The notes below the pieces were generated by a model, which saw nothing but the letters and a program-made list of their open reading frames with translations, was not told where the DNA came from and did no database searches. The translations under genes were made by a program, and so were the position numbers. From the IMG/VR virus record IMGVR_UViG_3300036398_002697, positions 1 through 59,242 of that record: a stretch of 59,242 nucleotides of DNA, one strand, 5' to 3'. This DNA comes from a virus. Below are positions 1 to 14,276 of this stretch, piece after piece. Within the stretch, counting starts at the first letter, position 1, and each line of letters starts with the position of its first letter.

Positions 1-638
1 TTGATACTATTCTTGACGGAGATTCCGAAAAGAAAAGTTTAGGATCAATGGCAAATGTTTGGAAATCTTTGCTTGAGATTGATTCAACATTAAACATTGG
101 ACTTTCTCCGATTGATGTTGGTCAAGCACTTGTCTATGTTGATAAACCAGCAGCGCGAAGATATTCGAAAGCAAACTTGAATCTTGTGCAGCACAAAGCA
201 AAGATTTTTGAATCAAAAGTTCATCATCTCATCTATCTAAATGAGATGTCTATTCATGATTTTATTCCAGCACTAGATGGTATTATCACTGCGGATATAT
301 GTCCTGGGAAATCAGTGAATAAAGATTTACTTAAATATGTTGATTATCTCTTTATTTCTGATGAAGATATTGATGATGATTTATCTGATTATGTGAAGGC
401 AACAAAAGGATATGTAGTGCTCCATAGTTCGTCAGGAAGCGTTGTATCAAATGGAGAGAATGAGTTCTTCTATAAACTACCAGAAGAACTTATGCTTAAG
501 GGAGTGAACGTTCTTGGTGCTGGTGACACATTCGCTTCTTGCTTATTATATAAATTACTAAGGAATGTGGGAGACATCCATAACTGGATTGAATTTGCTC
601 ATTTAAAGACAACTGAAATTATTAGGAATTCAATATGA
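1..638 (+). CDS. PfkB-family sugar kinase, 5' end cut by window
   Basis: The frame is open from base 3 through the window edge, so the true start lies upstream and the ATG at 48 is internal. The 3' part carries the PfkB second signature, LGAGDTFASCLL, whose Asp is the catalytic base, and the left end (SLGSMANVWKSL) looks like a diverged first signature. PfkB (ribokinase-family) enzymes phosphorylate sugars with ATP. The visible 211 residues lack perhaps 30-90 N-terminal residues of a normal kinase. It overlaps the next gene by 4 bases, so kinase and nucleotidyltransferase/isomerase are translationally coupled. That suggests it supplies a sugar phosphate for NDP-sugar synthesis; the substrate cannot be told. 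Confidence 0.8.
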   Translation, partial: DTILDGDSEKKSLGSMANVWKSLLEIDSTLNIGLSPIDVGQALVYVDKPAARRYSKANLNLVQHKAKIFESKVHHLIYLNEMSIHDFIPALDGIITADICPGKSVNKDLLKYVDYLFISDEDIDDDLSDYVKATKGYVVLHSSSGSVVSNGENEFFYKLPEELMLKGVNVLGAGDTFASCLLYKLLRNVGDIHNWIEFAHLKTTEIIRNSI

Positions 639-1792
639 AACCAAATGTTCTTGTTCCGATGGCGGGACTTGGTAGTAGATTTATTAAAGAAGGATTTAAA
701 GTACCGAAGCAACTTATCAATATTAAAGATAAGCATCTCATTGATATTTCTCTTGATTGTCTTAATTACGAAGATTGTAACTTAATCTTTGTAGTTAGAG
801 ACGAAACTGTCTATAATTTTCATATTGATGAACTACTAAAGAAAAAGTTTGGTGATGATATCAAGATTGTGATTCTTGATAAACTTACTGATGGATCTGT
901 ATGTAGTTGTTTATATGCTGAAGATTATATTGATAACGATGCACCTCTTGTGATTCATACTTTGGATATTGAATTCCGCCCAGTATTTGATCCTCATACA
1001 ATCAATGATTTGGATGCAGATGGACTTCTTTTGACATTCAAATCAAACTCTGCAAACTATAGTTATGCTGATGTTGATGAATCTGGATATGTGAAGAGAA
1101 CTGCTGAGAAAAAAGCAATCAGTTCTAATGCATGTGTTGGAATCTATGGATTCAAAAAAGGTTCTGACTTCTGCAGTTATGCACGAGAAATGATTGCAAA
1201 GGATATCAGAACTAAAAACGAGTTCTATATTGCACCTTTGTACAATCTTCTCATTGATGATGGTAAGAAGATTGTTACTTCAGATGTAGATAAGATGCAT
1301 GTCTTTGGAACTCCTGATGAGTTTCACTTCTATAAGGAGAATGTAATCCGTAAGATTGGTGATAAACCTATTGCAATTTGCTCAGATCATTCTGGATTTG
1401 AAGCAAAGGAAGAGTTCAAACATATTCTTGAAAAGCATAATCTTGAATATATTGATTTTGGAACTATTCTTAATAAGGATTGTGACTATAGTGACTACAT
1501 TGCACAAGCAGTTAAAGCAATTGCTGAGCGTGATTGTGATTATGGATTTGGTTTCTGTCGCACGGGACAGGGTGTAAACATCTGCGCGAACAAATACAAA
1601 GGTATTCGTTCGGCACTTATCTATGATGACTTCTCTATGGAAATGGCCATTCGTCATAATTGTGCAAACTTCTTTGCTATTCCTGCGAAGGATTATACTG
1701 TTGAGAAGTTAGACAAGTACCTAGAACTATGCTCAACTCATAGTTTTGATGGTGGTCGGCATCAAGTTCGCATTCAGGAGTTAGAAAAGTGA
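635..1792 (+). CDS. Sugar nucleotidyltransferase fused to RpiB/LacAB-like isomerase
   Basis: Two domains are visible. Residues 1-240 are a nucleotidyltransferase: the N-terminal PMAGLGSRF with a following conserved Lys (KVPKQL) is the nucleotide-binding loop of sugar-1-phosphate nucleotidyltransferases. From about residue 244 (KPIAICSDHSGFEAKEEF) to the end it is a RpiB/LacAB sugar-phosphate isomerase, with the catalytic Cys in GFCRTGQGVNICANK, the IRHNCANF His motif and the C-terminal FDGGRHQ. RpiB interconverts aldose and ketose phosphates. The fusion, next to a PfkB kinase, puts isomerase, kinase and nucleotidyltransferase activities side by side, resembling the GmhA/HldE heptose route. 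Substrate identity is inference. Confidence 0.85.
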   Translation: MKPNVLVPMAGLGSRFIKEGFKVPKQLINIKDKHLIDISLDCLNYEDCNLIFVVRDETVYNFHIDELLKKKFGDDIKIVILDKLTDGSVCSCLYAEDYIDNDAPLVIHTLDIEFRPVFDPHTINDLDADGLLLTFKSNSANYSYADVDESGYVKRTAEKKAISSNACVGIYGFKKGSDFCSYAREMIAKDIRTKNEFYIAPLYNLLIDDGKKIVTSDVDKMHVFGTPDEFHFYKENVIRKIGDKPIAICSDHSGFEAKEEFKHILEKHNLEYIDFGTILNKDCDYSDYIAQAVKAIAERDCDYGFGFCRTGQGVNICANKYKGIRSALIYDDFSMEMAIRHNCANFFAIPAKDYTVEKLDKYLELCSTHSFDGGRHQVRIQELEK

Positions 1793-2109
1793 TTCAAGCA
1801 AATATTACTGACTTTAAAGCAGGATGGTTTGTTGGTGATTTTGAACCATCTATTTTTAAGAATCCATTCTTTGAAGTAGCACATCATAAGCATAAAAAGG
1901 GATGCAAAACTTTTCCTCATACTCATAAGGTTACCAATGAGTTAAACTACATTGTCTCTGGTGATCTTAAAGTTAATGGTAAATTTATGTCTACAGGTGA
2001 TATGTGGATTTATGAACCAAATGAAGTATCAGATGTGGAGTTTCTTGAAGATTCTGAATTGATCATTGTTAGATGGCCATCTATTCCTTCAGATAAGTAC
2101 ATGGTATGA
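1789..2109 (+). CDS. Small cupin-domain protein
   Basis: This 106-residue single-domain protein has a cupin pattern: FPHTHKVTNELNYIVSGD (metal-binding His pair and Glu) followed by a glycine-containing second strand (STGDMWIYEP). Small cupins bind metals and act as sugar isomerases, epimerases or sensors. In this operon a sugar-modifying role is plausible but unproven. The start is GTG at 1789, overlapping the upstream stop as GTGA, the coupling seen across this operon; no ATG lies nearby. Confidence 0.7.
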   Translation: MIQANITDFKAGWFVGDFEPSIFKNPFFEVAHHKHKKGCKTFPHTHKVTNELNYIVSGDLKVNGKFMSTGDMWIYEPNEVSDVEFLEDSELIIVRWPSIPSDKYMV

Positions 2110-2558
2110 AACTGATAGCACATAGAGGTAATACCACAGGACCTAATCCTTTAGAGGAAAATAAACCAGAATATATTGAGAGTGCAATCTCAGAAGGTTA
2201 TGATTCTGAGATTGATTTGTGGTATAAAGACAATTCTTTCTACCTAGGACATGATGAACCTCAGTATGAAATTAGTGCTCTATGGTTATACAAAAATAAA
2301 GAATCTTTATGGATTCATTGTAAAAACTACGACGCTCTTGAAAAAATATCAAACTCACCTGTAGATTATAATTTCTTCTGGCACGAAACAGATAAGTTTA
2401 CTCTCACAAGTAAAGGATATATCTGGACTTATCCTGGACAATCAGTAGGATGCAATTCTGTAGTAGTGATGCCAGAAACTACTAAAGATGGTATAATAAA
2501 TGTAAGTAACTATGAATGCTATGCTGTTTGTAGTGATTATGTGAGAGAAATAAAATGA
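2106..2558 (+). CDS. Glycerophosphodiester phosphodiesterase-like (PLC-like) protein
   Basis: The N-terminus MKLIAHRGN with ENKPEYIESAISEGYDSEID and YLGHDEP matches the core of the GDPD family: the HRG histidine, the Glu/Asp metal ligands and the following GHD. These enzymes cut phosphodiesters of glycerol or head groups using a divalent metal. At 150 residues it is shorter than usual GDPDs (about 240), so it is a minimal TIM-barrel half or a diverged binding protein. It starts with an ATGA overlap to the cupin gene and ends with an ATGA overlap to the next gene. It may act on phosphoglycerol decorations of a surface glycan (inference). Confidence 0.6.
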   Translation: MKLIAHRGNTTGPNPLEENKPEYIESAISEGYDSEIDLWYKDNSFYLGHDEPQYEISALWLYKNKESLWIHCKNYDALEKISNSPVDYNFFWHETDKFTLTSKGYIWTYPGQSVGCNSVVVMPETTKDGIINVSNYECYAVCSDYVREIK

Positions 2559-8508: not shown

Positions 8509-9273
8509 ATGAGAGTAAATGTTTACTATCACATTTGGTCTCCTGCAGATACTGATCTGTGGAAGATCATGGTTGATGAACAAATTAAAAGATTATATCG
8601 TTCAGGACTTACTGAAGTAGCAACTGTGAAGTGTGCTATTAATGGAGCACAAGCATCTAGAATCAAAGAGTTTGTTTCTCTCTATGATTGGATTAATATT
8701 GTGGATTGTAGAGATAGTGATGAAGAGTATGAAGGTTTTACTCTTAAACATCTCTACGAAGATTGCGTAAATGAACGAGCACACAAAGTGATGTACTTTC
8801 ATACAAAAGGAATTAGTCATTTTTGTGGTGTGAGAGACGTTTATTCTGATCGTAGAGTGCGAGCAATAAATAGTTGGAGACACCTCATGGAATGGGGTTG
8901 TATTGATAAATGGAAAGAAAATCTTGATAGGTTAGATACCTATCAGGTTACAGGAGTTAATTACTGTTTAGATCCATGGCCACATATGAGTGGTAATTTT
9001 TGGTGGGCGAGAGCAGATTATATTTCAACTCTTCAACATCCAACTAAACAAGCATTCAATCGTGAAAAAGAAGATTTTGGTCCTATTGAAAGAATGAATT
9101 TTGAAAAGTGGGTCGGTATGAAAGATCCATCAGTATTCAGTTTTTATAATCCTCCATTTAGTTACGACTTTAAGGATATGGTGCCTGATGTGCAACCTAC
9201 TCCTCCAGGTGAACCACATTGGTTCTGGTTATATCGTGACGACATTCATCCACACTATCTGAAAGAATCATGA
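8509..9273 (+). CDS. Putative glycosyltransferase (HTKGIS family)
   Basis: The 254-residue protein contains VMYFHTKGISHF, NSWRHLMEWGCIDKW and HMSGNFWWARADYI in order, a set I recognise from uncharacterised sugar-cluster proteins of phages and bacteria in which HTKG and GNFWWA are invariant. No classical DxD can be assigned with certainty. It lies four bases after the GT6 gene and overlaps the next by 4. Glycan assembly is inferred from context and family. Confidence 0.55.
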   Translation: MRVNVYYHIWSPADTDLWKIMVDEQIKRLYRSGLTEVATVKCAINGAQASRIKEFVSLYDWINIVDCRDSDEEYEGFTLKHLYEDCVNERAHKVMYFHTKGISHFCGVRDVYSDRRVRAINSWRHLMEWGCIDKWKENLDRLDTYQVTGVNYCLDPWPHMSGNFWWARADYISTLQHPTKQAFNREKEDFGPIERMNFEKWVGMKDPSVFSFYNPPFSYDFKDMVPDVQPTPPGEPHWFWLYRDDIHPHYLKES

Positions 9274-9998
9274 CTGTAAAATTTGGATGTTTTCATACCG
9301 TATATGAAAACAAAAAAGCAACTGAGTTTGTACTACAAGAATTTAGAAAGTATCATCCAGATGCACCATACACTATCTGTTGTGATGGTGGTGTGGATTA
9401 TTCTGACTTGTGTGAAAAATATAACGTCAACTATGTTCATTCTTATATGAGAATTGGGCGTAGAAATTCTGGTCATCCATCAGGAGTATATGGATTCACT
9501 AAGGATGAGAGTTTACATTGGATTCATATGTTTAGAGAGGCTGCTAGACATGTGAAAGCAAATGGTGGAACTCACATGATTATGATGGAGGACGATGTTC
9601 TCACTCAGGGTGAAGTAAAGATCAATCCTATCTGGGAGTGTGCGGGATTTGAAGTTCCTGGAAATACAATAGCACCAGCACTTTTAGATTTCATTCGTGA
9701 TAAGTACGGTGCAAATCCAAATGTAGATTGGTATGGAGCGGGTGGGGGTAGCATTTATAATATTGAGACCTTCCTTAATAATTACCACAAAATCTATGAC
9801 TTTATTGATTTTGATTTTGAGAATATTCTAAGCAATATGGATTATCGATTTGGATGGTTAGATCTTTACATGCAGATTGCATATTTTGTAATCGGCAAGC
9901 ATTATTCAATTAATACTAATCTCACTGAAGTATGGAAAACACCTAATTTCCGCGAAAGTGATTTCACTCTTGTTCATGCATATAAGGAATTGTACTGA
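9270..9998 (+). CDS. Putative GT-A glycosyltransferase
   Basis: The protein has THMIMMEDDVL with an EDD metal-binding triad at residues 107-109, preceded by a Rossmann-like first half (FGCFHTVYENKKATEF, YTICCDGGVDYSD). DWYGAGGGSIYN and RFGWLDLYMQ follow, as in GT-A fold acceptor regions. Family assignment is not possible by eye. It is coupled by short overlaps to both neighbours in the glycosyltransferase block. Confidence 0.55.
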   Translation: MTVKFGCFHTVYENKKATEFVLQEFRKYHPDAPYTICCDGGVDYSDLCEKYNVNYVHSYMRIGRRNSGHPSGVYGFTKDESLHWIHMFREAARHVKANGGTHMIMMEDDVLTQGEVKINPIWECAGFEVPGNTIAPALLDFIRDKYGANPNVDWYGAGGGSIYNIETFLNNYHKIYDFIDFDFENILSNMDYRFGWLDLYMQIAYFVIGKHYSINTNLTEVWKTPNFRESDFTLVHAYKELY

Positions 9999-12809: not shown

Positions 12810-14276
12810 ATGAAACTCAAACAACTGATGCTCGCACCTGTTGCTCTGGGTATGGTTGCTCCTGTTGCTGCGAATGCCGCAGATCTTAATATGGTAGCAG
12901 TCAACCAATACTCCTCTGAGCAGGTCACAAGCGTCACTCAATTTTCTGATGTGCAACCTACCGATTGGGCATATCAAGCACTCTCGCAACTGGTAGAGCG
13001 TTACGGTTGCGTTGCTGGTTATCCTAACGGCACTTTCCGTGGTGTTCGTGCCATGACTCGTTATGAGGCAGCAGCACTTCTGAATGCTTGTCTTGACCGT
13101 GTGACTGAAGTTACCGATGAACTCAAGAAGCTTCTTGCAGAATTCGGTGCTGAACTCGCTGTTCTGAAAGGTCGTGTTGATGGTCTAGAAACCAAAGTTG
13201 GTGTTCTGGAAGCACAACAGTTCTCCACCACCACCAAACTGCGTGGTGAAGCAAACTTTGTTCTTGGTGGTGTAGATAACTACCAAACCAAAAGTGGTGA
13301 CATCACTCGTACTGCATTCAACTATGATCTGCGTCTGAACCTGGACACTTCATTCACCGGACAAGATCTTCTGAAAACCCGTCTGCGTTCTGCTAACTTT
13401 AGCAGCAATCCTTTCGGTTCCAGTTCTTCGATCTTCAAACTGGATAAGGCAGATAACACCTCTGGTGAAAACGGTAACAACGTAGTTATCGACCGTCTGT
13501 ATTACCAGTTCCCTGTATTCAACGGTAGCACTACTCTTACTGCTGGTGCTCTAGTTCGTAACACAGAGATTGCCTGGGTTCCTACTGCTTATAAGTCGGG
13601 TATTCTTGACTTCTTTGCTGTTGCTGGTGCTCCTGGTGTATATAACAAAGCAGTTGGTTCTGGTTTCGGTATCCAGTATGGTAAGAAAGGTCTTGTTGCT
13701 GGTGTAAACTATGTGGCACAGAATGGTGCTGATAGTTCTAAGGGTGAGTTTGATCGTTCTGGTGCTCTGAACACTCTGGCACAGATTGGTTATCGTGGTA
13801 CTAACTGGGGTGCTGCTTTCGGTTATCGTTATGGCACCGAAGGCACCCGTGTTCGTACCTACAACGGTCTGAACGGTGCTTCTGGCACTCTGGTTCCAGG
13901 TCAAACCTCTAATGGTTATGCCCTGAATGCTTACTGGCAACCTACTCAATCTGGTTGGGTTCCCTCCATCTCTGGTGGTTACGGTTGGAATACTGTAAGT
14001 GGCACTCAAAGTGCTGCTACCAACAGCCAGTCCTGGTTTGCTGGTCTGACTTGGGAAGATGTGTTTGTTGATGGTAACTCTGCTGGTGTTGCTATCGGTC
14101 AAGCACCTACAGGCGAGAACCTTGAGAAGTCCACGATGCTTGAAATCTTCTACAAGTATCAAGTGTCTGATAACATCAGCGTCACTCCTGCTATCATCTA
14201 CGGAAGTGACAATCAGCGCCTTGCTGGTAACTCTTCTAACTGGGGTGGTGTGATTCAGACGACCTTCAAGTTCTGA
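12810..14276 (+). CDS. Cyanobacterial-type porin with signal peptide and SLH domain
   Basis: The 488-residue protein has a signal peptide (KLKQLMLAPVALGMVAP..., cleavage likely after AANA), an SLH domain at about 44-97 (FSDVQPTDWAYQAL, GYPNGTFRG, MTRYEAAALLN), a coiled coil at about 98-137 (VTDELKKLLAEFGAELAVLK), then a beta-barrel of OprB/Som type ending in Phe (TTFKF). This is the architecture of major outer-membrane porins of marine picocyanobacteria. Codon use is richer in C and G than the sugar operon, fitting acquisition from a host. It has its own promoter and terminator. It would change outer-membrane permeability or replace the host porin in infected cells (inference). Confidence 0.9.
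   Translation: MKLKQLMLAPVALGMVAPVAANAADLNMVAVNQYSSEQVTSVTQFSDVQPTDWAYQALSQLVERYGCVAGYPNGTFRGVRAMTRYEAAALLNACLDRVTEVTDELKKLLAEFGAELAVLKGRVDGLETKVGVLEAQQFSTTTKLRGEANFVLGGVDNYQTKSGDITRTAFNYDLRLNLDTSFTGQDLLKTRLRSANFSSNPFGSSSSIFKLDKADNTSGENGNNVVIDRLYYQFPVFNGSTTLTAGALVRNTEIAWVPTAYKSGILDFFAVAGAPGVYNKAVGSGFGIQYGKKGLVAGVNYVAQNGADSSKGEFDRSGALNTLAQIGYRGTNWGAAFGYRYGTEGTRVRTYNGLNGASGTLVPGQTSNGYALNAYWQPTQSGWVPSISGGYGWNTVSGTQSAATNSQSWFAGLTWEDVFVDGNSAGVAIGQAPTGENLEKSTMLEIFYKYQVSDNISVTPAIIYGSDNQRLAGNSSNWGGVIQTTFKF

Follow-up and report, generated by a model that had tools for sequence, protein, structure and literature searches.

Gene layout at the left end of the contig

The window, the whole stretch of DNA analyzed here, is a cyanophage contig that makes up a virus record of 59,242 bases, and a set of sugar-related genes lies at its left end (Table 1). 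An open reading frame at 3-638, with its 5' end open, encodes a PfkB-type kinase and overlaps by 4 bases (...CAATATGAAA...) a second frame at 635-1792, the 385-aa product of which joins a nucleotidyltransferase (NT) domain to an RpiB-type isomerase domain. This layout had been read from the DNA in the original prediction, and the Pfam matches bear it out. The contig's left end cuts off the first ~12 codons of the kinase gene, a truncation that the original prediction did not mention. The named phages closest to the window, judged by identity across the whole fusion, are the Synechococcus phages SynMITS9220M01 (86%) and Bellamy (83%). The fusion gene is annotated as "phosphatase" in both and falls into PHROG 3980, a family without assigned function.

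Table 1. Predicted features at the left end of the window, with the evidence for each
Feature	Position	Strand	Evidence
Short PfkB/ribokinase-fold sugar kinase	1..638	+	Pfam PfkB; GAGD motif; AlphaFold2 model of relative L002
NT-RpiB fusion gene, whole; start codon overlaps kinase stop by 4 bases	635..1792	+	ORF; relatives; dN/dS
NT domain, N-terminal, fusion residues 1-240	635..1354	+	PF00483 borderline; 4evw profile match; invariant residues
RpiB/LacAB sugar-phosphate isomerase domain, C-terminal, fusion residues 245-385	1367..1789	+	PF02502; TIGR00689; invariant residues; dN/dS
Small cupin, 106 aa; closes the conserved block in most relatives	1789..2109	+	Cupin_2 match; neighborhood
Short HRG...HDEP protein, like the start of GDPD-type phosphodiesterases	2106..2558	+	Neighborhood; no Pfam match

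A compact kinase and an NT-RpiB fusion

The window kinase was matched by Pfam PfkB (PF00294) at 27.4 bits (cut-off, 25.8), and the catalytic GAGD motif was invariant in alignments of 18 and of 11 relatives. The protein is about 223 aa long in relatives (223 aa in Bellamy gene 205), some 90 residues less than is typical of PfkB enzymes, and its sequence is recognized mainly in the C-terminal half. An AlphaFold2 model of the kinase from relative L002 had a mean pLDDT of 80.7, with some middle strands poorly predicted, and aligned with ribokinases at a Z of ~20 over 215 of 223 residues.

In the N-terminal part of the fusion, Pfam NTP_transferase (PF00483) covered residues 10-176 at 21.1 bits, just below its cut-off of 21.2, and a weak similarity to IspD was also present. 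A profile of the NT-domain family matched PDB 4evw, which is named merely as a nucleotide-sugar pyrophosphorylase, at an E value of 1e-40, and RmlA structures at ~1e-9. The hallmarks of PF00483-type sugar-1-phosphate NTs are all found, namely the GxGxRF...PK loop, the metal-binding Asp and the EK motif (G11, R15, K25, D111, E158, and K159). E158-K159 aligns with the EK motif that has a role in sugar-1-phosphate NTs such as RmlA. On the 4evw profile match, the predicted NT assignment is firm.

The C-terminal part was matched by LacAB_rpiB (PF02502) over residues 246-383 at 118.2 bits (cut-off, 24.7; E, 3.5e-34). It resembles the RpiB/LacA/LacB isomerases in being a full-length domain with all catalytic residues, the Asp-His, Cys, His, and phosphate-binding Arg being present in alignments with PDB 1o1x and 3he8, and in scoring above the TIGR00689 family cut-off (107.9 versus 88.3 bits). 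It differs from them in standing behind an NT, in falling short of the RpiB equivalog model TIGR01120 (105.3 bits; cut-off, 138.65), and in its FCR[TS]GQG loop. In all 15 phage copies aligned, the catalytic-Cys loop reads CR[TS]GQG in place of the common CGTGxG. Some bacterial RpiB proteins share CRSG; the loop glutamine was absent from all 12 bacterial RpiB proteins compared.

The fusion recurred at 45 viral loci and was full length (384-385 residues) at nearly all of them; its return in dozens of contigs with a constant length rules out a chance, chimeric, or assembly-made fusion. Among 43 fusion sequences, 234 of the 385 positions were invariant. Eleven diverse fusions, with identities to the window as low as 49%, kept every one of the six NT residues listed above, the loss of which was to have overturned the original prediction, together with RpiB D251, H252, C308, H341, R375, and R379; R15-F16 was likewise invariant across NT-RpiB fusions. 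The isomerase thus has the intact Cys and His motifs first ascribed to it (Cys308, His341, and Asp251-His252). Pairwise dN/dS ranged from 0.03 to 0.10 in the NT half and from 0.03 to 0.13 in the RpiB half, rough values with synonymous sites near saturation, and by these estimates both halves are under purifying selection. Structure prediction, which the original prediction had suggested for both fusion domains, gave a mean pLDDT of 36 and no usable fold on a shallow alignment, so that the active sites proposed for the fusion are read from its sequence.

A predicted phosphatase upstream and the constancy of the set

In Bellamy, gene 204, directly before the kinase gene, encodes a HAD protein of 178 residues, a relative of the KdsC and KDN-9-phosphate phosphatases. 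This upstream HAD matches KdsC-type structures at E values down to 3.8e-15, and its D8, D10, T53, K81, and D104-D105 are invariant. Its score with TIGR01670 (KdsC) is 78.3 bits against a cut-off of 106.95 (E, 5.6e-22), which by family model makes it a KdsC relative rather than a confirmed KdsC. KdsC/KDN-9-phosphate phosphatase is likewise the best family for the kinase-adjoining HAD in relatives; of 80 HAD-kinase junctions measured, 71 have the HAD stop and the kinase start overlapping by 1 base. The window stops short of this gene and carries no phosphatase itself; one is predicted for this phage from its relatives, among them contig L040, a phosphatase carrier with a fusion 97% identical to that of the window. 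With this HAD counted in, the relatives have side by side a candidate for each of the four heptose-route activities (isomerase, kinase, phosphatase, and NT).

How constant this set is was measured in a kinase-seeded table of 82 contigs and a fusion-seeded table of 79; because the contigs are related in sequence, the numbers speak to constancy and do not represent independent events. The fusion directly followed the kinase in 70 of the 82 kinase-bearing contigs. An unfused NT and then a split transketolase followed it in seven, and the remaining five were cut by contig ends. The HAD was detected upstream of the kinase in 81, and in the 82nd (L204) a HAD frame is visible further up. Seeding with the fusion placed the kinase directly upstream in 78 of 79 contigs and detected the HAD in 75; the exception, L286, is cut inside an upstream frame whose end bears a GAGD-containing segment. 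The cupin adjoined the fusion in 65 of the 70 fusion contigs.

The seven transketolase-type contigs (L148, L150-L153, L204, and L209) carry compact halves of ~210 and 160 aa, in two genes, beside the unfused NT (Transketolase_N, 3.2e-11; Transket_pyr, 6.3e-16), and in L153 an additional NT-RpiB fusion lies further along. These contigs form one clade in both the kinase and the NT trees, so the variant is counted once, as a single evolutionary event; repeated swapping of RpiB and transketolase, a possibility that we had considered, was dropped on the same grounds. Elsewhere the two trees disagree in places (e.g., L175/L177 and L212/L220), which implies recombination, and the cassette nonetheless stays complete. 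This pattern supports the view that the set is inherited as a unit.

Distribution of the cassette and relatives of the NT

The cassette was seen solely in viral contigs, both of marine cyanophages and of more divergent phages (L210-L220). A database search for the same fusion, suggested with the original prediction, found it again and again in phage contigs. In 296 Bacteroidota genomes (NT query), 285 Omnitrophota genomes, and 72,556 plasmid records, no NT-RpiB fusion was found beyond a phage contig in a Bacteroidota metagenome-assembled genome (MAG), and kinase relatives in the same Bacteroidota and Omnitrophota genomes were limited to that phage contig (one search, run without a positive-control genome). 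A scan of bacterial genome contigs, limited to what its peptide patterns could match, returned the phage contig, equal to viral contig L018, and one plain RpiB; none of the bacterial loci fetched in these searches had both NT and RpiB domains. A bacterial origin of the fusion is unsupported by these ~580 genomes of two phyla and the plasmids. The contig in question (L057, PACT01000001.1), from a Crocinitomicaceae MAG, carries the phage cassette, agrees with L018 in both its length and its match position, and is apparently phage contamination. Literature searches, with subscription journals outside their coverage, found no published description of the cassette or the fusion.

The fusion NT is about 34 to 36% identical to bacterial members of the 4evw-type family, of which no characterized member was found in this analysis. 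In bacteria, these NT genes lie in polysaccharide clusters together with HAD_2, a homologous cupin, an HRG protein, and often a second NT. These clusters differ from the phage cassette in having the HAD_2 protein, for which the beta-phosphoglucomutase group is the best family, and in lacking the PfkB kinase and the RpiB fusion. Three plasmid records (L221-L223, PLSDB) label members of the NT family "glycosyltransferase family 2 protein," a label that probably misnames a nucleotidyltransferase family.

Cyanophages also fuse the same NT family to other partners, as in the HAD_2-NT protein of S-CAM9, with which one cyanophage group joins the bacterial-type HAD_2 to the NT, and the NT-NT protein of S-SM2. 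S-SKS1 (L050, 7998-9425) fuses it to 3,4-dihydroxy-2-butanone-4-phosphate (DHBP) synthase (RibB), which suggests a route to an unusual activated four-carbon compound.

Surroundings of the cassette

The window cassette is set in a glycan island that encodes GDP-mannose 4,6-dehydratase-type enzymes and glycosyltransferases of families 11, 6, 4, and 25, suggesting that a glycan is made during infection, for the host surface or for the virion. The cupin is a Cupin_2 match (E, 1e-3 in the window and 8e-5 in Bellamy), with homologs also beside NT genes in bacteria. The HRG...HDEP protein adjoins the block in most phage loci and, by weak matches, occurs near related bacterial NT genes. SynMITS9220M01 has 6-phosphogluconate and glucose-6-phosphate dehydrogenases near the cassette.

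Comparison with heptose pathways

Routes to activated heptoses consist of four activities, an isomerase, a kinase, a phosphatase, and an NT (PMC11573728). The cassette resembles the ADP-heptose pathway (GmhA, HldE, GmhB, and HldD) in placing an isomerase, a PfkB-superfamily kinase of predicted anomeric action, a HAD protein, and an NT in series, and in that pathway too the enzymes are often fused. The kinase agrees with HldE in its superfamily (PF00294 and the ribokinase fold), HldE aligning with it only around the GAGD motif. The cassette differs in its isomerase, which is RpiB (PF02502) rather than a GmhA of the SIS type, in its KdsC-like HAD, and in its NT, which is of the GalU/RmlA type. 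No HxGH or (F/L)xxGxSTT motif, as expected of the C-terminal NT of HldE, was present in the fusion NT, and profile comparison with Escherichia coli HldE gave a probability of 0.2%. The fusion there is between kinase and NT; here it is between NT and isomerase, a difference noticed at the outset and upheld by the Pfam and profile matches.

The GDP-heptose pathway (GmhA, HddA, GmhB, and HddC) shares the four-step logic, and HddC-type enzymes share the NT fold, but its HddA is a GHMP kinase and HddC is not among the family matches of the window fusion. At an E value of 0.1, the HddC model NF049965 was absent from the NCBIfam matches of the fusion, and the same model matched Bellamy gene 217 at 4e-17. 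In the same island, Bellamy encodes a separate HddA-type kinase (7e-83) along with this HddC-like NT, and SynMITS9220M01 has its own HddA-, GmhA-, and HldE-C-like genes there; these separate heptose-type genes make a second heptose route in the two phages unlikely. By family membership, the cassette is not a heptose pathway. The proposal of an HldE/GmhA-like route by other parts stands as to logic, with the predicted phosphatase one gene upstream in relatives and the set inherited as a unit, and is weakened as to its HldE-like part by the families of the NT and the isomerase. A candidate sugar-activation route with the logic of GmhA and HldE, drawn from mostly other families, is supported and strengthened.

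A proposed sugar-activation route and its alternatives

These genes probably form one sugar-activation cassette within a phage-encoded surface-glycan island, its isomerase, kinase, phosphatase, and NT leading to an NDP-sugar. The reactions and the sequence in which they run are inferred, as are the anomeric position and the involvement of a sugar and a nucleotide. The RpiB domain would convert a ketose phosphate to an aldose phosphate, the kinase would add a phosphate at the anomeric carbon, the upstream KdsC-like phosphatase would remove the terminal phosphate, and the NT would join the resulting aldose-1-phosphate to a nucleotide, with the isomerase-NT fusion coupling the first step to the last. 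The kinase and phosphatase may jointly do the job of a phosphomutase, by analogy with bacteria, where the same NT family is accompanied by a HAD_2 from the beta-phosphoglucomutase group. In the transketolase lineage, the split enzyme in the isomerase's place would be another way to a sugar-phosphate skeleton; its replacement of RpiB fits a skeleton-supply role, and both can yield, for example, ribose-5-phosphate, without this identifying the sugar. The scheme does not account for the cupin and HRG proteins. More tentatively, the cassette may represent an undescribed phage-borne route in which a mobile core of KdsC-like phosphatase, compact ribokinase-fold kinase, and 4evw-type NT, fed by either the fused RpiB or the split transketolase, makes a non-heptose NDP-sugar for a phage-encoded surface glycan.

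Some NTs of surface polysaccharide synthesis activate non-anomeric phosphates without a kinase, as CDP-6-fructose synthase does (PMC10918830). The NT studied here could conceivably act likewise, in the manner of the CDP-6-fructose, CDP-ribitol, and IspD enzymes, placing the nucleotide on a terminal phosphate, with RpiB adjusting the ratio of ketose to aldose and the kinase and phosphatase having supply or clean-up roles. The weak IspD similarity, the known CTP:fructose-6-phosphate enzymes (PMC10918830), and the S-SKS1 union of the same NT with DHBP synthase, a maker of a four-carbon terminal phosphate, are in keeping with this. We consider it unlikely, since a kinase and a phosphatase would be kept in the block to no purpose, the EK motif indicates sugar-1-phosphate NTs, and the block has no dedicated reductase. 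CDP-6-glucitol and CDP-mannitol synthesis (HS5.18 and Mnp1) is similar in its use of a sugar NT for surface polysaccharide and differs in that fructose 6-phosphate is activated directly, without kinase or phosphatase (PMC10918830).

RpiB enzymes are known for sugars of four to six carbons. This counts against a heptose product after all, in which RpiB would isomerize sedoheptulose-7-phosphate and the kinase, HAD, and NT would carry it to an NDP-heptose, as does the membership of the NT and isomerase in families other than those of HldE-C and GmhA and the presence of separate heptose-type genes in Bellamy and SynMITS9220M01. Such a product is quite unlikely even though the four-step logic is shared with GmhA/HldE/GmhB (PMC11573728), transketolase, which makes sedoheptulose-7-phosphate, sits at the same place in some related phages, and NDP-heptose enzymes have been reported from viruses (PMC11461863). 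Pentose-phosphate genes are frequent in cyanophages, and the dehydrogenases in SynMITS9220M01 would suit an auxiliary RpiB that turns ribulose-5-phosphate into ribose-5-phosphate for phage nucleotides and is merely fused to a glycan NT. We regard that as improbable: in the contigs examined RpiB is always fused to the NT and, L153 aside, directly behind the kinase, the location is a glycan cluster, and transketolase takes RpiB's place in one phage lineage. RpiB enzymes form dimers or tetramers, and proteins are commonly fused to oligomeric domains, so the isomerase domain could be a mere oligomerization module or structural relic without catalysis. This is highly improbable, because the canonical catalytic residues are invariant down to 49% identity and dN/dS in the RpiB half is as low as in the NT half; both observations argue against the relic that was to have told against the original prediction.

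Significance of the proposed phage-borne route

The new elements are the pairing of the domains, a full set borne by phages, and the alternation of RpiB and transketolase, with the chemistry predicted. If the proposed sugar-activation route is correct, phages encode every step to an activated sugar, and not just glycosyltransferases. A commentary on viral NDP-heptose work remarked that the phosphatase is absent in viruses (PMC11461863); here, a putative phosphatase accompanies the phage set. The route would also open a way to test the remodeling of host or virion glycans by cyanophages, besides supplying rare NDP-sugars from a new source, and Bellamy, a named carrier phage with a recorded host strain, makes such a test practical.

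Two further genes of the window deserve mention. The gene at 12810-14276 encodes an OprB-type porin that carries an SLH domain and resembles the outer-membrane porins of cyanobacteria; Synechococcus phage S-SRM01 has a full-length homolog (72%). Within the glycan island, the gene at 9270-9998 has a weak match, below the cut-off (1e-4), to the SseK/NleB glycosyltransferase family.
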